From NCBI RefSeq assembly GCF_022549785.1, contig NZ_JAKZGO010000003.1, forward strand, positions 196,167 to 260,166: 64,000 nt of DNA, read 5' to 3'. Positions 13,087-26,713 of this stretch are shown here, piece after piece (position 1 is the first letter of the stretch; each line of letters starts with the position of its first letter). The stretch is from Belliella alkalica. GTDB taxonomy: Bacteria > Bacteroidota > Bacteroidia > Cytophagales > Cyclobacteriaceae. The notes beneath the pieces are model-generated. The model was not told where the DNA came from, did no database searches, and saw only the letters and a program-made list of their open reading frames with translations. Both the position numbers and the translations under genes were made by a program.

Positions 13087-13419
13087 CTACATCGTAGTAA
13101 TATCTCCCAAAGTTGCCAAAGCCATTTGCAGTTCCTTGTCGGAAATTTTACCGATTTTTTCTACCAAGCGCTCTTTCGAAATTGAGCGAATATGAAAAAC
13201 CATCATTTCAGATATTTCCCTCAGGTTGTTCGTAGTGTCAGGGATTAAAATTGGGTTACCTTGATAATTTTTTATTTTGGAAGTCAAAGGAACAGTGATG
13301 ACTACTTTGAGGTGTTTGTTGAGTAAGTTTCCACTGATAATGACTACTGGACGAAAGCCAGCTTGCTCAGAATCTTTACTAGGATTCAGATCAGCATACC
13401 AGATTTCACCTTGTTTCAT
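13087..13419 (-). CDS. MazF/PemK-type mRNA interferase toxin
   Basis: A 110-residue type II toxin of the PemK/MazF family. It begins KQGEIWYADLNPSKDSEQAG and continues with FRPVVIISG, the conserved core with the nucleic-acid binding loop, and then VPLTSKIKNYQGNPILIP. It would cleave mRNA. It is the second gene, overlapping the antitoxin by 14 bases. A second, decayed copy lies at 7975-8307. Both N- and C-terminal parts match the family length, so this one should be functional. Confidence 0.9.
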   Translation of the reverse strand: MKQGEIWYADLNPSKDSEQAGFRPVVIISGNLLNKHLKVVITVPLTSKIKNYQGNPILIPDTTNNLREISEMMVFHIRSISKERLVEKIGKISDKELQMALATLGDITTM

Positions 13420-13728: not shown

Positions 13729-14535
13729 CTACATCTCTCCCTCAAACACAAAATAACCTTCTTTCCAAACCCCTTTTTCTACTTTCTCATCAAACAATCC
13801 AAACACTGTCGACCCTGACCCTGACATGGCAGCGTAGAAAGCACCCATTTCATAAAGTTTACTTTTGATAGCTGCAATCTCTGGGTATTTGGGGAAGATG
13901 CTTGCTTCAAAATCATTGACCAATTCGTCCTTCCACCTCGATCGGTCGGCAAGGACTTCAGATAGGTTAACTGTCGGTGCTTGTGGGACTACACCAGCAT
14001 ACGCTTCTTTTGTCCCAATGTGTATATTTGGGTTGATTAGTAGAAGGTGTTTGCCTTTCAGGTCGATATTCACTGGCTCAAGAACTTCTCCTCTTCCTGT
14101 AGCGATCTTTGGCGTATTTTCTACGAAAAAAGCACAATCACTACCCAATTGCGCAGCATAATCTTCCAAAAACCAATCTTCAAGCAACAAATCAAAAAGA
14201 TTGTTCATCATGCTCAATGCAAAAGCAGCATCTGCTGAACCACCTCCCAAACCTGCACCCATAGGGATGTTTTTGTGAAGATGAATGCTCACATGCGGCA
14301 ATTCATTGAAGTCTTTGCGCAGGAGTTTGAATGCTTTGAGGATGAGGTTGTCTTTGTCTGAACCAGGGATAGGCAACCCCGTACTTGTGAAAGTGGTTTT
14401 CTTGTCTAAGATCATTTCTAACGCATCGTACAGAGGAATGGGGACCATGCAAGTCTCTACCTCGTGATAGCCATCTTTTCTTTTGGCTGTGATGTGTAAG
14501 CCAAGATTTATTTTTGCATTTGGGAAACTGATCAT
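13729..14535 (-). CDS. ispE: 4-diphosphocytidyl-2-C-methyl-D-erythritol kinase
   Basis: A 268-residue GHMP kinase of the non-mevalonate isoprenoid pathway. It phosphorylates the 2-hydroxyl of CDP-methylerythritol with ATP. The N-terminus AKINLGLHITAKRKDGYHE is the IspE signature, including the lysine and histidine substrate residues. The glycine-rich ATP loop is PMGAGLGGGSADAAFAL. Near the C-terminus MSGSGSTVFGLF is the third GHMP motif. The length is close to the family norm, slightly short at the C-terminus. It stands alone between a toxin-antitoxin pair and the ilv leader. Confidence 0.94.
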   Translation of the reverse strand: MISFPNAKINLGLHITAKRKDGYHEVETCMVPIPLYDALEMILDKKTTFTSTGLPIPGSDKDNLILKAFKLLRKDFNELPHVSIHLHKNIPMGAGLGGGSADAAFALSMMNNLFDLLLEDWFLEDYAAQLGSDCAFFVENTPKIATGRGEVLEPVNIDLKGKHLLLINPNIHIGTKEAYAGVVPQAPTVNLSEVLADRSRWKDELVNDFEASIFPKYPEIAAIKSKLYEMGAFYAAMSGSGSTVFGLFDEKVEKGVWKEGYFVFEGEM

Positions 14536-14888
14536 GCCCCGAATTTATAAATTATGTGACGAGATAAATAATTCACCAAGCAAATCTTTCAAAACCATTT
14601 GTTTTTCAATAGTTTATTGTTTTTTATTGTGATTTGTGGAAATACAAAAACTTTGCGTATTCATTACTGTATCTTATCGATAAGGATTTTTTATTTATAA
14701 AAAAATCAAAAAAAATAACTTTTTGTTAACACTTAGCGAATCCGTGATTTTGTTTTGAAATTTTAAATAAATTTTGAAAAATAAATATATAATTCTGATT
14801 TTGTTCAAAAAATAGATTTATAATTTTTTCAAAAAGTTTAATGACGGTATTTAAAATTTAAATGTGAGATAAAAAAAGAATTAAAATA
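14536..14888. other. AT-rich intergenic region upstream of the ilv promoter
   Basis: About 350 bases with very low GC and long A and T runs. No open frame or repeat is visible. It separates the divergent ispE gene from the ilv-leu operon and probably holds its upstream promoter elements. Nothing else is recognised. Confidence 0.6.
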
Positions 14889-14919
14889 TTGTAAGTATGG
14901 AAATTGAGGTTTAATATTG
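14889..14919 (+). promoter_or_regulatory. Candidate Bacteroidota-type promoter of the ilv-leu operon
   Basis: TTG at 14889-14891 and TAATATTG at 14912-14919, 20 bases apart, match the -33 (TTG) and -7 (TAnnTTTG) elements of Bacteroidota sigma-ABfr promoters with one mismatch. Transcription would start near 14926, about 33 bases upstream of the leader peptide ATG. The assignment is by pattern only. Confidence 0.5.
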
Positions 14920-14958
14920 TATCACGAAATCGAAACAAAAAATATTAACCATAACCAC

Positions 14959-15015
14959 ATGTTTAAATCAGTCAGCCTTATTGGAATTATTATTCTCATC
15001 ATTGGAAAACAATGA
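14959..15015 (+). CDS. ilv-leu operon leader peptide (attenuation)
   Basis: An 18-residue frame, MFKSVSLIGIIILIIGKQ, holding six Ile, two Leu and one Val. These are the three amino acids made by the operon that follows. The stop TGA overlaps the first arm of the antiterminator hairpin (15013-15020). Stalling at the Ile codons would leave that arm free. Completing translation would cover it and let the terminator form. This is the classic layout of a transcription attenuator. The open frame is too short for a gene caller, but the composition and the hairpins make it credible. Confidence 0.9.
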   Translation: MFKSVSLIGIIILIIGKQ

Positions 15016-15085
15016 GGCGCTAGACTATATAAATTAAACAACCATATAATTCTAGGTGCCTCATCCAAGTGAGGCACTTTTTTTT
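15013..15085 (+). terminator. Attenuator: antiterminator/terminator alternative hairpins
   Basis: The terminator stem is AGGTGCCTCA (15054-15063) with TGAGGCACTT (15070-15079), loop TCCAAG, followed by 8 T (15078-15085). The upstream TGAGGCGC at 15013-15020 can pair with the same GTGCCTCA arm (one G-T wobble), and a further CTAG/TAG extension is possible. The two pairings exclude each other. The ribosome position on the leader peptide therefore decides whether RNA polymerase reads into ilvD. Confidence 0.92.
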
Positions 15086-15116
15086 ATACAAGCTTATTAA
15101 ATAAACCTATTGAACC

Positions 15117-16796
15117 ATGAGTTTGAAGAAATACAGTTGGGAAATCAGCCAAAATGAAGAGCATCCGGCCGGCAAGGCCATGTTGTATGCCACAGGCTTG
15201 ACTGATAAGAAAATGAACCAACCCTTCGTGGGTGTTGCCAGTTGCGGCTATGAAAGCAACCCTTGCAACATGCACCTCAACGACTTCGCCGGTCTGATCA
15301 AAGCATCTTCCCAAGAGCATGATCTGACCGGTTTAGTATTTAATACCATTGGTATTTCGGATGGTACGACGATGGGTACTTTGGGTATGCGCTATTCCCT
15401 TGTATCTAGGGAGATCATCGCCGATTCTATAGAATCTTTTATCATCGGTCATTCCTTTGATGGCTGTATCTCTGTCGCAGGTTGTGACAAAAATATGCCA
15501 GGAGCACTGATGGGAATGATCAGGACAAACAGACCCTCAATCCTCGTCTATGGCGGAACAATAGCCTCGGGCAATTACAAAGGTGAAAAACTTAACATTG
15601 TATCTGCATTCGAAGCTTTTGGCAAGCGTGTCAATGGAAATATTTCTGATGAAGACTATGATGGTGTGATCCGAAATTCATGCCCTGGAAAAGGCGCTTG
15701 CGGAGGAATGTACACAGCAAATACCATGTCTTCTGCCATCGAGGCAATGGGCATGTCTTTGCCTTATTCCGCATCATATCCTGCTAATTCCCCCGAGAAA
15801 TTGAGGGAGTGTAGAGAGGTCAATAAATTCATGAAAATCCTTCTTGAAAAAGACATCAAACCAAGTGATATCATTACCAAAAAGAGTTTGGAGAATGCTG
15901 TCACTGTGACAATAGCACTGGGAGGAAGTACCAACGCTGTGATGCATATCATTGCGATTGCGAGGACTGCCGGTATTGATTTTACCATTGAAGATTTTAA
16001 GGCGATCAACGCAAAAACTCCGATGATTGGAGACTTCAAGCCTTCAGGTAAATTTATGATGGAAGACCTTCACGAGCAGGGTGGACTTCCTGCATTTATG
16101 AAGTACATGTTGCAAAATGGATTTTTACATGGCGATTGCCTTACAGTAACTGGTAAAACTTTAGCTGAAAATCTTGAGAATATTGATGCCATTGTTCCTT
16201 CTATGGTCAATGTAATCCATCCTTTAGAACAACCTATCAAGGCTACGGGACACCTTTGTATCTTAGATGGAAATCTTGCCCCTGATGGAGCAGTTGCCAA
16301 AATCACAGGAAAAGAAGGGAGTTCATTTACAGGGCCTGCAAGGGTTTTTGACTCAGAGCAAGAGGCAAATGACGCCATTCGTGACCATAAAGTACAGAAA
16401 GGTGAAGTACTTGTGATTCGAAATATTGGCCCAAAAGGTGGTCCAGGCATGCCTGAGATGCTTAAGCCTACATCAATGATCATTGGTGCTGGCTTGGGTT
16501 CTGATGTGGCATTGATTACTGATGGCAGATTTTCTGGTGGTACTCATGGCTTTGTGGTAGGACATGTCACTCCGGAAGCATTTCTTGGAGGACCGATCGG
16601 ATTACTGAAAGATGGTGATATGGTCACTATTGATGCAGACAAACTGAAATTGACTTGTGAAGTCAGTGAAGAGGAGTTTTCTGAGAGAAGAAAGGCTTGG
16701 AAAAAGAAAGACATTAAGGGCCTACAAGGTACTTTGAAAAAATATAATTTATTGGTTTCCACAGCCTCTGAAGGATGTGTGACTGACAAACAATAA
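15117..16796 (+). CDS. ilvD: Dihydroxy-acid dehydratase
   Basis: A 559-residue Fe-S dehydratase. It converts dihydroxy-isovalerate and dihydroxy-methylvalerate to the 2-oxo acids of valine and isoleucine. Family blocks are [27 protein letters not shown] and [16 protein letters not shown], which supply the cluster cysteines. The last third includes [18 protein letters not shown] and HVTPEA. It is the first structural gene after the attenuator, and ilvB follows 11 bases after the stop. The length matches the family. Confidence 0.96.
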
Positions 16797-16807
16797 AACC
16801 CAACACC

Positions 16808-18490
16808 ATGATAAGAGGAGCAGATATCGTAGTGAGATCATTGATAGCCGAAAATGCCAAGCATATTTTTGGGTATCCAGGAGGGGCGATTATGCCTGTG
16901 TATGATGCGCTTTATGATTATAGTGATCAGATTAGACATGTTTTGACACGACATGAGCAAGGGGCAATCCATGCCGCTCAAGGATATGCGCGTGTCTCTG
17001 GGCAAGTCGGTGTGGCCTTGGCAACTTCAGGCCCTGGTGCTACCAATTTGATAACAGGCCTTGCTGATGCCATGATTGACAGTACGCCTTTGGTCTGTAT
17101 TACAGGTCAAGTTGCTGCACATTTGCTGGGTACTGATGCTTTTCAAGAAACGGACGTGGTCGGAATTTCAATGCCTGTGACAAAGTGGAATATTCAGGTC
17201 AGAAGAGCCGAAGATATTGCTCCGGCTATCGCAAAAGGCTTTCATATCGCAAGATCTGGTCGTCCAGGACCAGTTTTGATTGACATCACAAAAAATGCAC
17301 AGACTGAAGCTGGAGAGTTTAATTATGTGCCTTGTCTAAGTATCAGATCCTACAGGCCATATTTTGAAGTCAAGAAAGATGAGGTGCAAAAAGCAGCTGA
17401 ATTGATCAATGCTGCAAAAAGACCTTATGTATTATATGGACAAGGTGTTGTCATTGGAAAAGCAGAGGCAGAGTTAAAAGCATTTTTGGACAAAACTGGA
17501 ATTCCTGCAGCATGTACTTTATTGGGTTCTGGAGCACTATCAGAAGAGCACCCTTCTTACGTTGGTAAGCTTGGTATGCATGGAAACTATGCTCCAAATA
17601 TGCTGACAAATCAATGTGATGTGCTGATAGCTATCGGAATGCGCTTTGATGACCGTGTTACTGGTGATCTCAAACGCTATGCGAAGCAAGCGAAAGTGGT
17701 CCACTTGGAACTTGATCCAGCAGAGATCAATAAAAATGTATTTGCTGACGCACCTGTTTTGGGAGATTGTAAACAAAGCTTAAGTATGCTAAATCAGGCA
17801 GTGAATCCAAACAGCCATGAAGAGTGGATGTCAAAATTCAAAGAACTGGAGTTGCTAGAAAGAGAATCTGTAATCGCCAATGACCTGTCACCGACGAAAG
17901 TAGGGTTGACAATGGGTGAGGTGATCAGATTTATCAATCAATATAAAGCTGACGATGCTATTTTGGTAACGGATGTTGGACAGCATCAGATGATCGCATG
18001 GAGGTATTTTGATTACAAAACTTCCAAAACACAAGTAACTTCCGGTGGACTGGGTACTATGGGATTTGCCCTTCCAGCAGCATTGGGAGCTCAGATGTAC
18101 GATTACAGCCGTCAGGTGATCTGTGTGGTCGGTGACGGGGGAATCCAAATGACAATCCAAGAGCTAGGGACTATCATGCAGACCAAAGCTCCTGTGAAGG
18201 TAGTGTTATTGAATAATAACTTCCTTGGGATGGTAAGACAATGGCAGCAGATGTTCTTTGATAGAAGGTATTCATTCACAGAACTGGACAATCCTGATTT
18301 TATCAAACTAGCGGAAGCATACAGCATCAAAGCTACAAAGGTTTCTGAGAGAGAGGGGTTAAGTGAAGCAGTAGCAGATATGCTGATGCATGATGGACCA
18401 TATTTCTTGGAAGTTGTGGTAGAAAAAGAGGATAATGTATTCCCGATGATCGCTACGGGTTGTTCGGTAGAAGAGGTAAGACTAAGCTAA
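16808..18490 (+). CDS. ilvB: Acetolactate synthase, large (catalytic) subunit
   Basis: A 560-residue ThDP-dependent enzyme. It condenses two pyruvates to acetolactate, or pyruvate and 2-oxobutyrate to acetohydroxybutyrate. The ThDP-activating glutamate is in HEQGAIHAAQGYARVSG. The FAD/middle domain contains RFDDRVTGD, and the ThDP/Mg motif is GDGGIQMTIQELGTIMQT with NNNFLGMVRQWQ. It starts with GADIVVRSLIAENAKHIFGY, as expected. The regulatory subunit follows after 14 bases. It makes a complete AHAS with IlvN. Confidence 0.96.
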   Translation: MIRGADIVVRSLIAENAKHIFGYPGGAIMPVYDALYDYSDQIRHVLTRHEQGAIHAAQGYARVSGQVGVALATSGPGATNLITGLADAMIDSTPLVCITGQVAAHLLGTDAFQETDVVGISMPVTKWNIQVRRAEDIAPAIAKGFHIARSGRPGPVLIDITKNAQTEAGEFNYVPCLSIRSYRPYFEVKKDEVQKAAELINAAKRPYVLYGQGVVIGKAEAELKAFLDKTGIPAACTLLGSGALSEEHPSYVGKLGMHGNYAPNMLTNQCDVLIAIGMRFDDRVTGDLKRYAKQAKVVHLELDPAEINKNVFADAPVLGDCKQSLSMLNQAVNPNSHEEWMSKFKELELLERESVIANDLSPTKVGLTMGEVIRFINQYKADDAILVTDVGQHQMIAWRYFDYKTSKTQVTSGGLGTMGFALPAALGAQMYDYSRQVICVVGDGGIQMTIQELGTIMQTKAPVKVVLLNNNFLGMVRQWQQMFFDRRYSFTELDNPDFIKLAEAYSIKATKVSEREGLSEAVADMLMHDGPYFLEVVVEKEDNVFPMIATGCSVEEVRLS

Positions 18491-18504: not shown

Positions 18505-19017
18505 ATGAACCGTTATACCATACTTATTTATACAGAGAATTTTATCGGTATCCTCAATAGGATCACGATCATTTTCACCAGAAGAGGCATCAATATTGAT
18601 GCGCTCACCGCTTCCGAAAGCCGCTTGGATGGGATCCATAAGATCACCATCGAGTGTACTGTGACAGAAGAGCAGATTATCCAATTGGTAAAGCAAATAG
18701 AAAAAATCACAGATGTGATCAAAGCTTATTACTTCATGGATAGTGAGGTTGTCTATCAAGAAATTGCGCTTTACAAGCTTCCAATTGACAGCTTGGATGC
18801 AAGTCTTGAAAAAGTAATCAGACAATATAATGCCCACATCATTGCAGCAGAGAAGGAATTTGTTGTGGTGGAATTTACAGGGCATAAAGAAGATACTCAG
18901 GCATTGTTGGAGACACTCAAGCCTTATAGCCTTCTTGAGTTTTCTAGGTCAGGCCGTGTAGCTATTGCCAAACCTAGATTTTCCGTATCAGAATATTTAA
19001 ATAATCAAACCTTATAA
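18505..19017 (+). CDS. ilvN: Acetolactate synthase, small (regulatory) subunit
   Basis: A 170-residue ACT-domain protein. It binds the catalytic subunit and confers feedback inhibition by branched-chain amino acids, usually valine. The first ACT domain occupies roughly residues 3-75 (YTILIYTENFIGILNRITII, then RRGINIDALTASES). The C-terminal half is the ALS_ss_C region. The ATG at 18505 is chosen over a frame-open upstream start at 18460, which would overlap ilvB and adds 15 residues of no family likeness. Confidence 0.94.
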   Translation: MNRYTILIYTENFIGILNRITIIFTRRGINIDALTASESRLDGIHKITIECTVTEEQIIQLVKQIEKITDVIKAYYFMDSEVVYQEIALYKLPIDSLDASLEKVIRQYNAHIIAAEKEFVVVEFTGHKEDTQALLETLKPYSLLEFSRSGRVAIAKPRFSVSEYLNNQTL

Positions 19018-19029
19018 AAACCAATAACT

Positions 19030-20073
19030 ATGAAACTGAAATTTGGATCAGTAGAAGAAAATGTAGTAACCAGAGAGGAATTTCCACTGGAGAAAGCTAG
19101 AGAAGTATTGAAGGATGAAGTGATCGCCGTATTGGGTTACGGAGTACAAGGTCCTGGTCAAGCATTGAACTTGAAGGACAATGGCTTCAATGTAATCGTG
19201 GGTCAGAGAAAAGATTCCAAGACTTGGGACAAAGCAGTTGCTGATGGCTGGGTTCCTGGAGAGACACTTTTCGAATTGGAAGAAGCTTGTGAAAAAGGCA
19301 CAATTCTTCAATTCTTACTTTCTGATGCAGGACAAATAGCGCTTTGGCCTACAGTGAAAAAACACCTTACTCCTGGAAAAGCATTGTATTTTTCTCATGG
19401 TTTCGGTGTGACTTACAAAGAAAAAACAGGTATCGTTCCCCCAGCTGATGTTGATGTGATTTTGGTTGCACCTAAAGGTTCTGGGACATCTTTGAGAAGA
19501 ATGTTTGTAGAAGGTAGAGGATTGAACTCTTCTTATGCCATCTTCCAAGACGGAACAGGTAGAGCAAAAGATAGAGTTGTAGCACTTGGAATCGGTGTAG
19601 GATCAGGTTACTTATTCGAGACTGATTTTTACAGAGAGGTTACATCTGATTTGACAGGTGAAAGAGGAACTTTGATGGGGGCTATTCAAGGAATCTTTGC
19701 TGCTCAGTATGAAGTGTTGAGAGCGAATGGTCACACTCCTTCTGAGGCTTTCAATGAGACTGTTGAAGAATTGACACAAAGTTTGATGCCATTGGTGGCA
19801 GAGAATGGAATGGATTGGATGTATGCCAACTGTTCTACTACTGCCCAAAGAGGTGCTTTGGACTGGTGGAAGCCTTTCAGAGATGCAACTAAGCCGGTAT
19901 TTGAAGAGCTTTATGATTCTGTAAAAACAGGTAAAGAAGCACAAAAATCAATTGATTCAAATAGCAAATCTGACTATAGAGTAAAATTAGAAGCTGAATT
20001 GAAAGAATTGAGAGATTCTGAAATGTGGCAAGCTGGCGCAACCGTCAGAAAATTAAGACCCGAAAATAACTGA
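19030..20073 (+). CDS. ilvC: Ketol-acid reductoisomerase (class I, short)
   Basis: A 347-residue NADPH enzyme converting acetolactate to dihydroxy-isovalerate by alkyl migration and reduction. The N-terminal Rossmann motif is [20 protein letters not shown], followed by [12 protein letters not shown], which shapes cofactor preference. The knotted C-terminal domain has the Mg-binding acidic residues in [11 protein letters not shown] and [10 protein letters not shown]. The size fits class I. It sits 12 bases after ilvN and 4 bases before leuA. Confidence 0.96.
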
Positions 20074-20077
20074 TATT

Positions 20078-21589
20078 ATGAGTGAAAAGCTATGGATATT
20101 CGATACCACCCTTCGTGATGGGGAACAGGTACCGGGTTGTCAATTGAACACCCGAGAAAAGATCGTGGTCGCTAAGGCATTAGAAGAACTGGGAGTAGAT
20201 GTGATTGAAGCTGGGTTTCCAATATCCAGTCCAGGTGACTTCAATTCAGTTGTTGAAATTTCCAAAGCTGTATCAAATCCCATTATCTGCGCCCTTTCCA
20301 GAGCTGTGGAAAAGGATATTGATGTAGCTGCTGACGCGCTGAAATATGCAAAAAAAGGAAGGATTCACACCGGCATCGGTGTGTCTCCTTTTCATATACA
20401 ATACAAACTCAGATCTACTCCTGATGAAATCATTGAGCGGGCTGTAAGGGCGGTGAAATACGCCAAGCGTTATGTAGAAGATGTGGAATTTTATGCAGAA
20501 GATGCAGGTCGTGCCGAAAAAGATTTTTTAGCCAGAATATTGGAACAAGTCATCAAAGCCGGTGCTACTGTAGTCAATATTCCAGATACCACAGGTTATT
20601 GTCTTCCGGAACAATACGGAGCAATTATCAGGCATCTAAAAGAAAATGTTTCCAACATTGACAAAGCAATCATTGCTACCCATTGCCACAATGATCTTGG
20701 TATGGCGACAGCCAACACCATTTCTGGTGTTCAGAATGGAGCAAGACAAGTGGAGGTTACGATCAATGGGATAGGCGAAAGAGCTGGAAATACTTCCATG
20801 GAAGAAGTAGTCATGGCAATCAAATGTCACCATGATATTCCAATCCATACAAGCATTGTCACTCCGAAGATTTACGAGACCAGCAGGTTGATCTCCAAAT
20901 TGATGAATATGCCTGTTCAGCCAAACAAGGCCATTGTAGGAAGAAATGCCTTTGCACATTCATCAGGAATCCATCAGGATGGTGTGTTGAAGCACAGAGA
21001 GAATTATGAAATCATCGATCCTAAAGATGTTGGCGTTCATGAATCATCGATAGTATTGACAGCAAGAAGTGGAAGGGCAGCATTGAAGCACCATTTGGAT
21101 GCTTTGGGTGTAGTTTTGGAAGGTGAGGCTCTGAAAGAAGTTTATGAAGAATTTTTGGTGATGGCAGATTCCAAAAGGGATATCACACCAAAAGACCTAC
21201 TTTCATTGGTAGGGAAATATATGGACGAGTCTTCCTTTATCGAATTGGATAAAGTGAGTTACGAGTCAAATGGAGAAATCAAATCAACCGTTTCCCTAAA
21301 AATCGGTGATAAAATTGAAGTGGCATCTTCTACAGGAAATGGTCCAGTAGATGCAGTACTTAAAGCTATTGAGAAAATCGTAAAGCCTGATATTGAGCTT
21401 GAAGAGTTTCTCATCCAAGCTATTACGGCAGGAAGTGATGATGTAGCTAAAGTTCACATGAGAATCATGCAAGGAAAAATCCCTTACTATGGTTTTTCTT
21501 CCAATACAGATATCGTATTGGCTTCAGCACAGGCATTTGTAGATGCCTTGAATAAAATACCCGTCAAAAATAAAGTGACAGTAGCCTAA
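20078..21589 (+). CDS. leuA: 2-isopropylmalate synthase
   Basis: A 503-residue enzyme that condenses acetyl-CoA with 2-oxoisovalerate, the first step of leucine synthesis. It shows the DRE-TIM signature [14 protein letters not shown], the SPFHIQYKL substrate block, an FYAEDAGR block, and [13 protein letters not shown] with metal ligands. The C-terminal LeuA dimer domain, probably the leucine feedback site, covers about residues 370-500. It is distinct from the second LeuA-like protein at 24001-25629, which has a different substrate pocket. leuC follows after 2 bases. Confidence 0.95.
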
Positions 21590-21591
21590 TT

Positions 21592-22992
21592 ATGGAAAAG
21601 AAAACATTATTTGATAAAATTTGGGATGCACATGTGGTCAAATCTGTCCCATCAGGACCGGATGTATTCTTCATTGATAAGCATTTTATCCATGAAGTAA
21701 CCAGCCCTGTTGCGTTTTTGAATTTGGAAAAACGTGGTGTAGGCGTCCTTCATCCGCAGAGGACAGTAGGTACTCCAGATCACAATGTGCCCACGGTGGA
21801 TCAAGATAAGACCATCAAAGACAAGCTTTCAAGAATGCAAGTAGAAAAGCTTCGTGAAAACTGCAAGAAGCATGGGATCGAATTGCATGACTTGGGTTCT
21901 GCCCACCATGGAATTGTCCATGTGATAGGTCCAGAGCTTGGGATTACCCAGCCAGGAATGACCATCGTTTGTGGAGATAGCCATACTTCTACACATGGGG
22001 CTTTTGGTGCCATCGCATTTGGTATTGGTACATCAGAAGTTGAAATGGTATTGGCTACGCAATGTATCATGCAGAGCAAGGCAAAGAAAATGCGCATCAC
22101 TGTCGATGGTGAGTTGAGTGCTGGTGTCACTTCTAAAGATATCATTCTATATATCATCGCTAAAATCTCTGCGGCAGGTGCTACTGGTTACTTTGTGGAA
22201 TATGCTGGCTCGGCAATCGAAAGCCTTAGCATGGAAGCAAGGATGACCATCTGCAACATGAGTATAGAAATGGGTGCCAGAGGAGGCCTAATCGCTCCTG
22301 ACGAAACTACTTTTGATTACCTAAAAGGAAAACAATATTCTCCAAAAGGAGAAGAATGGGACAAAGCAGTGTCTTATTGGAAGTCTTTGAAAACTGACGA
22401 TGGAGCTGTTTTCGATAAAGAATATCATTTTGATGCAGCGGATATTGAGCCAATGATTACTTATGGTACCAATCCAGGTATGGGTATCAAAGTCAAAGGA
22501 AATATCCCAAGCACCGAAGGTATGGAAGGTAGCAACAAAACTTCCTACTTGAAGTCATTGGATTACATGGGATTTGCTCCAGGTGAAGCGATCCAAGGAA
22601 AGAAAGTGGATTTTGTCTTTGTAGGAAGCTGTACCAATGGCCGAATTGAAGATATCAGATCAGTTGCCAATTATGTAAAGGGTAAGAAAAAGGCGGATAA
22701 CATTACCGCTTGGATCGTTCCGGGATCTAGGGAAGTAGAGAAAATGGCTCACGAAGAAGGCTTGGTGAAAATCTTGGAAGAAGCAGGATTTGAGTTGAGA
22801 CAACCGGGTTGTTCTGCTTGTTTGGCGATGAATGATGATAAGATTCCTTCAGGGAAATACGCTGTCTCCACTTCAAACAGAAACTTTGAAGGAAGACAAG
22901 GGCCAGGAGCCAGAACTATGCTCGCCAGTCCATTGACTGTAGCAGCAGTAGCTGTTAAAGGTGAAATATGTGACCCTAGAGAGATCTTTTAA
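21592..22992 (+). CDS. leuC: 3-isopropylmalate dehydratase, large subunit
   Basis: A 466-residue aconitase-family subunit binding a 4Fe-4S cluster. With LeuD it isomerises 2- to 3-isopropylmalate; if the cimA-like gene is real it also handles citramalate. Conserved blocks are [37 protein letters not shown], the cluster cysteine in [11 protein letters not shown] and [12 protein letters not shown] with two more cysteines. The length and block order are normal. It is followed by leuD 19 bases later. Confidence 0.96.
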
Positions 22993-23605: not shown

Positions 23606-23957
23606 AAAGGATGAAGGCTGAGGGATGAAGTAAGAAAGATGGAAGATTGAATAACCAAAAAATAGGTTATCAATGGAGGAAGGGAAAAGAACAAGGAAGT
23701 GAATCGAAATCTTTTATCTTATCTCGATATGATATTTAGATTAGAAAAATACAACCCCGAAGAGCTTGTTCCGAAAATCGGGAGGTTATACTATGATTAG
23801 CCTAGGGTTGCAACCCTGGGATTGAGTTGATATCATCGGACAGCAACCCCGAAGTGGGTTGAATTTGAAATGCTTGCAAATCATAAACATAGTGTGAAAT
23901 ACCAAAGTCTGTCAAACATCAAATTTTCATCCTTCAAACTTCATCCTTCATCCTTTC
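23605..23957. repeat. Inverted-repeat-bounded insert between leuD and the cimA-like gene
   Basis: GAAAGGATGAAGG and GGATGAAG, at 23605-23630, face CTTCATCCTTCATCCTTTC at 23939-23957 in inverted orientation. Inside are a 20-base near-palindrome, CCTAGGGTTGCAACCCTGGG (23801-23820), and a hairpin CAACCC/GGGTTG (23844-23861). No open frame is present, so this looks like a small non-coding element or a dispersed repeat. It lies inside an otherwise compact operon. Confidence 0.6.
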
Positions 23958-24000
23958 AAAATCTCATGTCTAAAATCTACCCTCTACAATCAAAAATAAA

Positions 24001-25629
24001 ATGGGAACACATAGGAAAATAGAAATCATGGACACCACGCTGAGGGATGGAGAGCAGACCTCAGGAGTCTCTTTTCTTCCTTCTGAAAAACTCCAGATAG
24101 CCAAGTTGCTGTTGGAGGAACTGAAGGTGGATAGGATAGAAGTGGCATCTGCCCGGGTTTCTGAGGGAGAGATGGAGGGTGTCAAAAAAATTACCCAATG
24201 GGCTGCAGAGAAAGGTTATTTGGATAAAGTTGAAGTTTTGGCTTTTGTAGATACGCCTGCATCTATCAATTGGATGGTGGAAGCAGGTGCCAAAGTCATG
24301 AACCTTCTCACAAAAGGATCATTGAATCATTTAACCCATCAACTCAAAAAAACTCCTGATCAGCATTTTGAAGATATCAGAGCTTGTGTCAAATATGCAC
24401 GTAGCAAAGGTATAACTGTCAATGTCTATTTGGAAGATTGGAGTAATGGGATGCGAAACTCCATGGATTACACCATGGATTTAATTAGCTTTTTGAATGA
24501 AATCAGAGTGCGTAGGATTATGCTTCCCGATACTTTGGGTCTTTTGCATCCTAGGGAAGTTTCCCATTTCGTAAAACTGATTACAACAGAATTCCCTGAT
24601 TGCCATTTTGATTTTCATGCACACAATGACTACGACCTTTCTGTAGCAAATGTACTGGAGGCGATTTACAATGGAATTGCGGGAATTCATACCACTGTCA
24701 ATGGACTCGGTGAAAGAGCTGGAAATGCTCCTTTGGAATCTGTAATTGCAGTTTTGAAGGATTTTACCGATTACAGGATTGGCCTCAACGAAAATAAGAT
24801 CTACCGTGTAAGCAAACTCGTAGAGCAGTTTTCCGGCCAACATATTCCTGCTAATAAGCCAGTGGTGGGAGAGAATGTCTTTACACAAACTGCAGGAATC
24901 CACGCAGATGGTGACAATAAAAAGAACCTTTATTTCAATGACTTGCTTCCTGAGAGATTTGGAAGACAAAGAAAATATGCGCTTGGAAAGACTTCTGGAA
25001 AGGCCAACATCCTCAAAAACCTTCAGGAATTGGGGATTTCCCTTGAGAAGGATGAGTTGACCAAAGTGACACAAAAAATCATTGAACTTGGGGATAGAAA
25101 AGAACGAGTGACCACTGAAGATTTGCCGTATATCATTTCAGATGTATTGCAAAACAATTCGATCACCAAAGATATCTTTATCGAGGGATATCACATGACC
25201 CACTCTAGGGGCTTGAAGCCTACAGTGCAGTTGAAAATGAGTATCCATGGCAAGTCTTTTGAAGAGCATTCTTCGGGAGATGGTCAGTACGATGCATTTA
25301 TGCGTGCATTGGTGAAGATCTATAAATCTCAAGGAATGCAGTTGCCGAAGTTGACTGATTACCATGTGTCCATACCTCCAGGAGGAAAAACAGATGCTTT
25401 CGTAGAGACTGTGATTACATGGGACTATGGAAGGATTTTCAAAACCAAAGGCTTGGATTCGGATCAGACAGTAGCTGCGATGATGGCTACTGAGAAAATG
25501 TTGAACATAATTGATAAAATGCATAAAAATCCTTCTGATAAAGCAATTTTTCAGGAGTTGAAAAATCAAAACCCAGAACAAGACAAAGAGAATTTCTATG
25601 GAAATGAATATAGCACTACTGCCAGGTGA
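24001..25629 (+). CDS. cimA: Probable (R)-citramalate synthase (LeuA-family), Leptospira-type
   Basis: A 542-residue DRE-TIM enzyme with C-terminal LeuA-type regulatory domain. Catalytic Arg15-Asp16 is in [15 protein letters not shown] and the metal site in [14 protein letters not shown]. The substrate pocket differs from the true LeuA at 20078: it has [11 protein letters not shown] (Leu102, Leu103) and [10 protein letters not shown] (Tyr143) where LeuA has SPFHIQ and FYAEDAG. As I remember them, these are the pyruvate-binding positions of Leptospira citramalate synthase, to which the whole sequence is very similar. It could make 2-oxobutyrate for isoleucine without threonine deaminase, using LeuCD and LeuB. 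It could still be a second isopropylmalate synthase. Its end overlaps leuB by 32 bases. Confidence 0.75.
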
Positions 25630-26659
25630 TGGCATAGGACCTGAGGTAATTGCTCAGGCAGTAAAAGTGGTCAAAGCTGTAGGTAAGAAGTTTGGCCATA
25701 CAATCAATTTCGAAGAAGCACCAGTTGGGGCGGCAGCAATAGACTTGACTGGCAACCCATATCCAGATGCTACCCACGATGTTTGTCTAAGAGCAGACGC
25801 GGTGCTTTTTGGAGCTATCGGAGATCCCAAGTATGACAATGATCCCAAAGCCAAAGTAAGGCCAGAGCAAGGTCTTTTGGAAATGAGGAGGAAATTGGGA
25901 CTTTTTGCCAATGTACGTCCTACTTTCACATTCCCTTCTTTGATTCACAAATCTCCATTGAAACTCGAAAGGGTGGAGGGAGTAGATTTTGTTTTCTTCA
26001 GAGAACTGACTGGAGGGATTTATTTTGGTGAGCCAAGAGGAAGAAACGAGCAAGGAACCAAGGCATTTGACACAAATGTCTATACCAAAGAAGAAATCAC
26101 GAGATTGGCTCGAATGGGTTTCGAAGCTGCGCAAAAAAGAAGGAAACTGTTGACTTGTGTAGATAAGGCTAATGTATTGGCTACTTCGAGATTGTGGAGA
26201 GAGACTGTACAAGAACTTGCTCCAGAATACCCTGATGTCAAAGTAGAATATGAATTTGTGGATGCAGTTGCTATGCGCTTGATCCAATGGCCAAAAGCTT
26301 ACGATGTTTTGATTACAGAAAACCTATTTGGTGATATTTTGACTGATGAAGCTTCGGTGATTTCGGGCTCTATGGGCTTGATGCCATCAGCTTCGGTTGG
26401 TACTGAGAACAAATTGTTTGAGCCAATTCACGGTTCTTACCCGCAAGCAGCAGGAAAAGACATCGCCAATCCATTGGCAACAGTGCTTTCGGCAGCAATG
26501 ATGTTCGAGTATGCTTTTGATATGAAAGCAGAAGCGCAAGCTATTTCTGATGTAGTCAATAAATCCTTGGCAGAAGGAATCGTAACAGAAGATATCGCCG
26601 AAGGATCCAAAGCCTACAAGACTTCAGAAGTAGGGGATTGGTTGGCGGAGAATCTATGA
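25598..26659 (+). CDS. leuB: 3-isopropylmalate dehydrogenase
   Basis: A 353-residue NAD-dependent beta-decarboxylating dehydrogenase, the third leucine step, and the 3-methylmalate step if citramalate is used. It has [11 protein letters not shown] at the start, [16 protein letters not shown] with the substrate residues, TCVDKANVL, and [12 protein letters not shown] with the Mg aspartates. The length is normal. ATGs at 25598 and 25604 are two codons apart. It overlaps the preceding gene and is the last operon gene, followed by a terminator. Confidence 0.96.
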
Positions 26660-26681: not shown

Positions 26682-26713
26682 AAAAACCCACTTTGAGAGA
26701 AGTGGGTTTTTTT
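26682..26713 (+). terminator. Rho-independent terminator after leuB
   Basis: AAAAACCCACTT (26682-26693) pairs exactly with AAGTGGGTTTTT (26700-26711) around a 6-base loop TGAGAG. The right arm runs into a stretch of T. It ends the ilv-leu operon. Confidence 0.95.

Follow-up and report, generated by a model that had tools for sequence, protein, structure and literature searches.

Upstream of the ilv-leu operon of Belliella alkalica lies a short open reading frame rich in isoleucine codons, followed by an intrinsic terminator, and the question raised by this locus is whether the two work together to adjust the operon to the supply of its products. We analysed it within a stretch of 64,000 nucleotides (the window, below) and in its relatives. 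The sequence features point, with a probability of roughly 0.93, to ribosome-mediated attenuation of transcription in response to branched-chain amino acids (BCAA), isoleucine above all. Attenuation had already been proposed in a preliminary description of this DNA, and the proposal gains from a leader and terminator kept in 78 of 80 related loci, from pairing kept through changes, from a conserved promoter and from downstream genes that match the leader.

A leader ORF and three hairpins before ilvD

The leader ORF (plus strand, 14959..15015 with the stop) starts with an ATG at 14959, ends with the TGA at 15013-15015, and encodes in its 18 codons the peptide MFKSVSLIGIIILIIGKQ. Nine of the 18 residues are branched-chain amino acids (six Ile, two Leu and one Val); composition and coordinates are as the preliminary description had read them. 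By eye, no Shine-Dalgarno-like sequence was seen before the leader ATG. The terminator, identified by sequence scan and alignment at 15054..15085 on the plus strand, consists of arms 3 and 4 in an 11-bp stem with a 4-nt loop and a run of eight Ts (15078-15085). It is separated by 31 nt from the ilvD start at 15117 and is the one terminator in 14400-15200, against a shuffle mean of 0.2.

Two alternative hairpins with a common arm had been described here, and both can be drawn. The common arm GTGCCTCA (15056-15063), within arm 3 (TCTAGGTGCCTCA, 15051..15063), pairs either downstream with TGAGGCAC (15070-15077), giving the terminator, or upstream, where TCTAGGTGCCTCA pairs with TGAGGCGCTAGA (15013-15024) across one bulge, giving the antiterminator. 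The 5′ arm of the antiterminator, TGAGGCGCTAGA, lies inside arm 2 (CAATGAGGC..CTAGACT, 15010..15026), and its opening three bases are the leader stop TGA, so the overlap of stop and antiterminator noted earlier is also present. A third hairpin was absent from that account: arm 1, located in the minimum-energy fold within the leader ORF (14970..14983, comprising AGTC at 14970-14973 and GCCTTATTG at 14975-14983), pairs with CAATGAGGC..GACT at 15010-15026, so that arm 2 is partner to both arm 1 and arm 3. With this 1:2 hairpin the classical set of 1:2, 2:3 and 3:4 is complete (four arms, three hairpins). The minimum-energy fold contains both the terminator and the 1:2 hairpin, and the region 14940-15091 has a folding z-score of -4.64, with none of 200 shuffles equally stable.

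Transcription of the leader would begin at a predicted Bacteroidota sigma-A promoter on the plus strand (TTG-N20-TAATATTG). Its -33 element TTG (14889..14891) stands at the very start of the interval given in the preliminary description, and its -7 element TAATATTG (14912..14919) follows 20 nt later; the -7 consensus TAnnTTTG is named in PMC9723704. The transcript start would fall a few bases past the -7 element, near 14925. A sigma-70 promoter scan of the locus was uninformative, since promoters of Bacteroidota differ.

From use of the promoter through translation and stalling to termination or read-through, the following steps are ones that we infer from the sequence. RNA polymerase would start near 14925 and a ribosome would enter the leader at 14959. 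When charged Ile, Leu and Val tRNAs are ample, the ribosome would reach the TGA at 15013 and its body would mask arm 2; arm 3 would then be free to pair with arm 4, and transcription would stop at the T run. When these tRNAs are scarce, the ribosome would stall on the Ile/Leu run, masking arm 1 and sparing arm 2, which would pair with arm 3 and allow the operon to be transcribed. If the leader is left untranslated, arm 1 may instead pair with arm 2 and so protect terminator formation.

Folding the RNA left free by the ribosome, codon by codon (with an assumed footprint from 18 nt upstream to 13 nt downstream of the first A-site base), agrees with this scheme in part. Stalls at codons 5-8 and 11-14 (the latter being Ile, Ile, Leu, Ile) left the antiterminator 2:3, and stalls at codons 15-19, stop included, left the terminator 3:4; in the full fold, the terminator also formed at codons 1-4, 9, 10 and 15, of which 10 and 15 are Ile. 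The hairpin values (1:2 -13.8, 2:3 -16.6 and 3:4 -16.3 kcal/mol), like those of the stall walk, are energies and not kinetics. In the free RNA before arm 4 emerges, 2:3 (-16.6) is favoured over 1:2 (-13.8), and protection by 1:2 is therefore not clear-cut by energy alone.

The genes downstream, all on the plus strand, were identified with NCBIfam models, eight of them above the cut-offs: ilvD, dihydroxy-acid dehydratase, the first controlled gene (15117..16796, TIGR00110, 712.6 bits against a cut-off of 618.15); ilvB, acetolactate synthase large subunit (16808..18490, TIGR00118); ilvN/ilvH, its small subunit (18505..19017, TIGR00119; the ATG at 18505 lies inside an ORF listed from 18460, and the family search covered 18508-19014); ilvC, ketol-acid reductoisomerase (19030..20073, TIGR00465); leuA, 2-isopropylmalate synthase (20078..21589, TIGR00973); leuC and leuD, the large and small subunits of 3-isopropylmalate dehydratase (21592..22992, TIGR00170; 23012..23605, TIGR00171); and leuB, 3-isopropylmalate dehydrogenase (25598..26659, TIGR00169). 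The ninth, a citramalate/isopropylmalate-synthase-like (cimA-like) gene at 24001..25629, falls below its cut-off (best match NF042433 CimA, 691.4 bits against 950). The products of the operon are the amino acids in which the leader is rich (Ile, Leu and Val). Over 559 residues, IlvD itself shows 100% identity to its Belliella calami counterpart (L002).

The leader would probably control the whole operon, as the preliminary description held. The strongest plus-strand terminator-like site after ilvD lies past leuB, at 26682-26711, and has the longest stem (13 pairs), although the terminator-like sites after the leader on both strands are about as many as chance would give (12 against 8.8 in shuffles). 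On the other side, leuD and the cimA-like gene are separated by a 395-nt gap (23606-24000) that holds no ORF of 100 amino acids and could house an internal promoter or a repeat element. Leader control would still likely extend to the last two genes (cimA-like and leuB). By eye, the gap contains repeated pieces resembling CAACCCCGAAG and GGGTTG. Elsewhere in the window, a 110-aa ORF lies on the minus strand at 13087-13419; we take it to resemble a MazF/PemK-type toxin of a toxin-antitoxin pair.

Conservation and pairing in close relatives

The sequence parts, their conservation and the persistence of pairing through sequence change can be observed directly among related loci. Relatives were taken as the best 80 of 192 IlvD matches, from Belliella, Algoriphagus, Indibacter, Mongoliibacter, Aquiflexum, Cecembia, Lunatimonas, Cyclobacterium and other genera. 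A search for the leader in relatives had been put forward as a check on the attenuator, and its outcome is favourable: a counterpart leader with at least five I/L/V residues and a terminator 3′ arm with its T run precede ilvD in 78 of these 80 loci, and the contigs of the other two start too late (L053 begins inside the leader, with the terminator present, and L077 has no upstream DNA). When the terminator was required to have an unbroken stem (G-U allowed, loop of 3-8), 75 of the 80 loci retained it; four others (L031, L032, L039 and L073) have a loop longer than 8, and the last is L077. The promoter is kept as well. In 49 of the 78 leader-bearing loci we looked for ATTG followed after 19-20 nt by TAnnTTTG, allowing at most one mismatch and requiring a distance of 35-60 nt from the -7 box to the leader ATG; all 49 had it, against 4.0 expected from shuffles, and the spacer was 20 nt in 48 of them.

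Pairing was assessed in an alignment of 55 sequences that was not fitted to the structures; besides the window it held 54 of the 78 loci, thinned by hand. The 2:3 and 3:4 helices were drawn from the window sequence and the 1:2 helix from the commonest pairs in single folds. First, the terminator 3:4 is paired in 97.5% of cells, against at most 59.6% in slid controls, and none of 500 shuffles was as high in percentage or score. Second, the antiterminator 2:3 is paired in 83.6% of cells (slid controls 26-46.0%) with a covariation score of 0.135 (slid at most 0.055; none of 500 shuffles as high). Two of its five measures are no better than shuffles, since the values for pairs changed on both sides and for further pair types were reached by 409 and 500 of 500 shuffles; the cells changed on both sides numbered 11, against 12 and 10 in two slid versions. 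Third, the 1:2 helix is paired in 77.0% of cells (slid at most 47.2%), with most of its measures within the range of column shuffles, and it is missing from the fold of some rows (e.g., L049). Because 49 and 50 of 500 column shuffles reach its percentage and score, the 1:2 helix rests on its place rather than on compensating changes.

The clearest change concerns the arm common to both hairpins. GCCTCA in arm 3 has become GCTTCA in six loci (L075, L076 and L078-L081, from Lunatimonas, Cyclobacterium and one Cytophagales MAG), and all six read TGAAGC in arm 2; arm 4 reads TGAAGC in five of them and has a G-U wobble in the sixth. In terms of alignment columns, the pair 89/141 of 2:3 goes from G-C to A-U in all six, while its counterpart in 3:4 is U-A in five and U-G in one. 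Arms 2 and 4 being altered alongside arm 3, the change in arm 3 was answered by both of its partners. The six sequences are related, and the change may hence represent one event.

Whether the ORF is translated can be approached through its codons, and here the pattern is only weakly coding-like; we do not count it in favour of translation. Over 110 close pairs there were 255, 184 and 272 changes at codon positions 1, 2 and 3; counted by codon, 161 changes were synonymous and 399 non-synonymous. Among 245 changed BCAA codons, 100 changes were synonymous, 43 stayed within I/L/V and 102 left that set. Arm 1, which lies inside the ORF, is an additional constraint on the leader sequence. A stronger argument for translation of the leader, again from comparison, is that BCAA-rich leaders recur in other genera and families with different leader and terminator sequences.

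Reach across the phylum and rival readings

To follow the device beyond close relatives, 156 regions upstream of ilvD were scanned (89 from the 181 family genomes with a match, mostly one per genus or closest, and 67 from the 109 with a match in the phylum; the set partly overlaps the best-80 loci). The scan score combines a BCAA-rich short ORF, a terminator and an antiterminator, and the clade is defined by an IlvD at least 73% identical. A score of at least 6.5 was reached by 68 of 156 regions: within the clade 39 of 40 did so, among the remaining genera of the family 13 of 49, and in the phylum sample 16 of 67. The last 16 come from two families, 11 from one in another class (f21) and five from one in the same class (f6). 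The remaining 88 scored lower (a single one of the 40 clade regions, 36 of 49 from elsewhere in the family and 51 of 67 from the phylum sample), and in some of these the operon may begin with a gene other than ilvD. Controls were run on the first 116 regions, before the last 40 were added: a score of at least 7 was reached by 63 of 116 ilvD regions, by 3 of their 116 reverse complements and by none of 348 dinucleotide shuffles, and at a score of at least 6 there were 68, 5 and 1, respectively. Regions upstream of his, thr, trp and prephenate-dehydratase genes, taken as a further control, gave 1 of 77 at 6.5 or more. Separately, 15 of 196 family genomes, several of them nearly complete, have no IlvD match at E <= 0.001; these may have lost BCAA synthesis or may use another dehydratase.

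Outside the clade, BCAA leaders of other sequence stand before ilvD in 29 of 116 regions, for example MIFSIVIIVVVLVIITPTTG (L118), MPILVVITIIVIIVIVQWRG (L150), MLSTVISLVIIRVIGIQYRPGRLCSK (L173) and MQISIIITSVVVVNVIHTSASGML (L197). In four of these 29 rows the best antiterminator match lies far from the stop (-55, -92, -94 and -95), and in several it lies at -10 to -20; the distances scatter more than in the clade, and the antiterminators of these rows are hence candidates only.

These leaders bear on the explanation in which the ORF encodes a small hydrophobic (membrane) peptide with a function of its own, while the terminator only holds operon expression at a fixed, lower level. We consider this very improbable. 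The peptide MFKSVSLIGIIILIIGKQ would pass as a membrane helix, Phe is also used in the clade of the window (69 of 707 leader residues), and the codon-position signal described above is weak. However, leaders outside the clade retain I/L/V (46-59% of residues, against 49% in the clade) with few other hydrophobic residues (A/F/M/W/C 5%, against 13% in the clade) and with N, S and T interspersed. The position of the stop argues in the same direction, since all 39 scoring clade regions have their best arm-2 segment beginning -2 to +8 nt from the leader stop. A fixed terminator, moreover, would not need the 2:3 pairing, yet this pairing is kept.

A second explanation, to which we assign a comparably slim chance, keeps the switch and discards the ribosome: the hairpins would be switched by a protein, a small molecule or a tRNA in the manner of a T-box, and the ORF would be incidental. 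Alternative hairpins are by themselves no proof of ribosome control, and the weak codon-position signal would fit an incidental ORF. Against this, no T-box or riboswitch reaches the Rfam gathering score in the window, and BCAA-rich leaders recur beside terminators of differing sequence. The least credible reading, by a clear step, is that the terminator ends an upstream transcript or a small RNA and does not regulate ilvD: a short transcript of ~160 nt would resemble a small RNA, but the upstream gene (13729-14535) is on the opposite strand, and in 78 of 80 loci leader and terminator occupy the same position ahead of ilvD, as does the promoter in the 49 tested. Ribosome-mediated attenuation remains the preferred reading of the locus.

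Other leaders, known systems and significance

The same family offers further leaders. Upstream of trpE, all seven Belliella genomes (L245-L251) have a WWW leader and an intrinsic terminator with T7; the leader in the genome of the window (L247) is MKTIQAKYWWWHLTSFQGEEPNAIV, and its occurrence in the same genus was counted in favour of attenuation at ilvD. For his and thr, the 30 best loci each were surveyed, from 59 family genomes (L279-L308 for hisG and L309-L338 for thrA). A His leader (at least four His in the last 14 residues; e.g., MNRNFLHIDLFLATAHAGTVHHIHHSS; L239/L279 is from the genome of the window) precedes 26 of the 30 best hisG loci, against 0 of 300 shuffles. A Thr leader (e.g., MSTSTFTTTTITG; L272 is from the genome of the window) was found at 24 of the 30 best thrA loci, but 24 of 300 shuffles gave one too, and two of the hits, L336 and L338, resemble chance matches. 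Neither L239 and L272 nor the trp leader locus L247 matches an Rfam family.

In the his leaders the stop codon sits in a hairpin loop, and the stem varies in sequence while the pairing stays (TTCCTC/GAGGAA, ATTGCT/AGCAAT, TGTGC/GCACA, ATCTCTC/GAGAGAT). A hairpin above the set score encloses the stop at 20 of the 30 best hisG loci and at 21 of the 30 best thrA loci, in the latter mostly as ACGGG..CCCGT around the stop. Within the next 60 nt, a CATATnGCC-like motif occurs at 10 of 30 hisG and 10 of 30 thrA loci (20 of 60), mostly 17-20 nt past the stop; these hairpin and motif counts come without shuffle controls. By eye, the seven Belliella his leaders carry CATATCGCCC after the hairpin. The scan found no terminator before hisG in seven of seven Belliella genomes, none within 1 kb before thrA in seven Belliella stretches and none upstream of prephenate dehydratase genes in seven of seven regions.

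A wider proposal, at which we would put even odds, is that leader peptides are a main means of controlling amino-acid operons in Bacteroidota and come in two forms, a terminator type (ilvD and trpE) and a stop-in-loop type (hisG and thrA), for which no U-run terminator was found in Belliella. If this is true, the stop-in-loop form would need a different read-out, such as pausing, Rho or translation control; Bacteroidota make little use of Shine-Dalgarno starts. The stop-in-loop his and thr leaders are a more novel lead than the ilv attenuator.

In enterobacteria, ilv and leu operons are controlled by the leader-peptide attenuators ivbL, ilvL and leuL. The locus in the window resembles these in its short BCAA-rich ORF, in the BCAA operon downstream, in its putative 1:2 protector, its 2:3 antiterminator and 3:4 terminator, and in a stop located at the deciding arm. 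It differs from them in lacking an Rfam leader match and a Shine-Dalgarno-like sequence at the leader ATG, and in having a single leader for a joint ilv-leu operon, with 18 codons only and mixed Ile/Leu/Val. Firmicutes rely mostly on T-boxes. A comparative prediction of BCAA, His, Thr, Trp and Phe attenuators was reportedly made by Vitreschak et al. in 2004, and the abstract is said to name Bacteroidetes/Chlorobi. The Bacteroid-trp motif RF01692, which is presumably linked to a trp leader, has no gathering-score match to the window or to the Belliella trp leader (L247). It shares with the present locus the standing of a cis-regulatory candidate in Bacteroidetes, as tabulated in PMC2864571.

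The preliminary description had called such attenuation best known in Proteobacteria and Firmicutes. This calls for a qualification: by an account of 2010, demonstrated leader-peptide systems were confined to Proteobacteria and Actinobacteria until that report added a his leader from Firmicutes (PMC2965389). It had also thought a case in Bacteroidota worth recording. This is not the first hint, because 'strong clues' of leader-peptide attenuation upstream of amino-acid operons were described for F. psychrophilum (PMC9723704). The F. psychrophilum set is alike in phylum, in proposed mechanism and in its amino-acid biosynthesis operons, and differs in that the main text of that paper names no ilv element ('ilv' occurs 0 times); the same source describes Shine-Dalgarno sequences as lacking in flavobacteria. 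Small ORFs reminiscent of leader peptides are mentioned for B. thetaiotaomicron (PMC7366714), and leader genes near their genes, Bacteroidetes included, are treated in PMC4833913, which does not use the term 'ilv'. By title or abstract opening, the open-licence literature gave no ilv leader in Bacteroidota, Bacteroidetes or Flavobacterium, which is no proof of absence. The ilv-leu attenuator is accordingly classical by anatomy and of a kind hinted at in Bacteroidota, and it is not worked out as far as the literature was searched.

At the Rfam gathering score, the only match in the 64-kb window is a tRNA. Matches at E<=10 in 14880-15120 number 11, all below the gathering score and none a T-box or riboswitch. 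An identity as T-box, riboswitch, Leu_leader, Bacteroid-trp or other Rfam leader was rejected, there being no gathering-score match and none among these 11. Ile/Val attenuators were noted as absent from Rfam in a 2013 paper (PMC3766115). Because no Rfam family matched the leader, Rfam-based annotation will probably overlook it.

For a phylum in which amino-acid control is poorly known, the locus adds a clear, conserved and testable device. Matched changes in its three arms would make it a good reporter for probing the coupling of transcription and translation. If it works as proposed, this coupling would be close enough in Bacteroidota to permit attenuation, despite the missing Shine-Dalgarno sequences.
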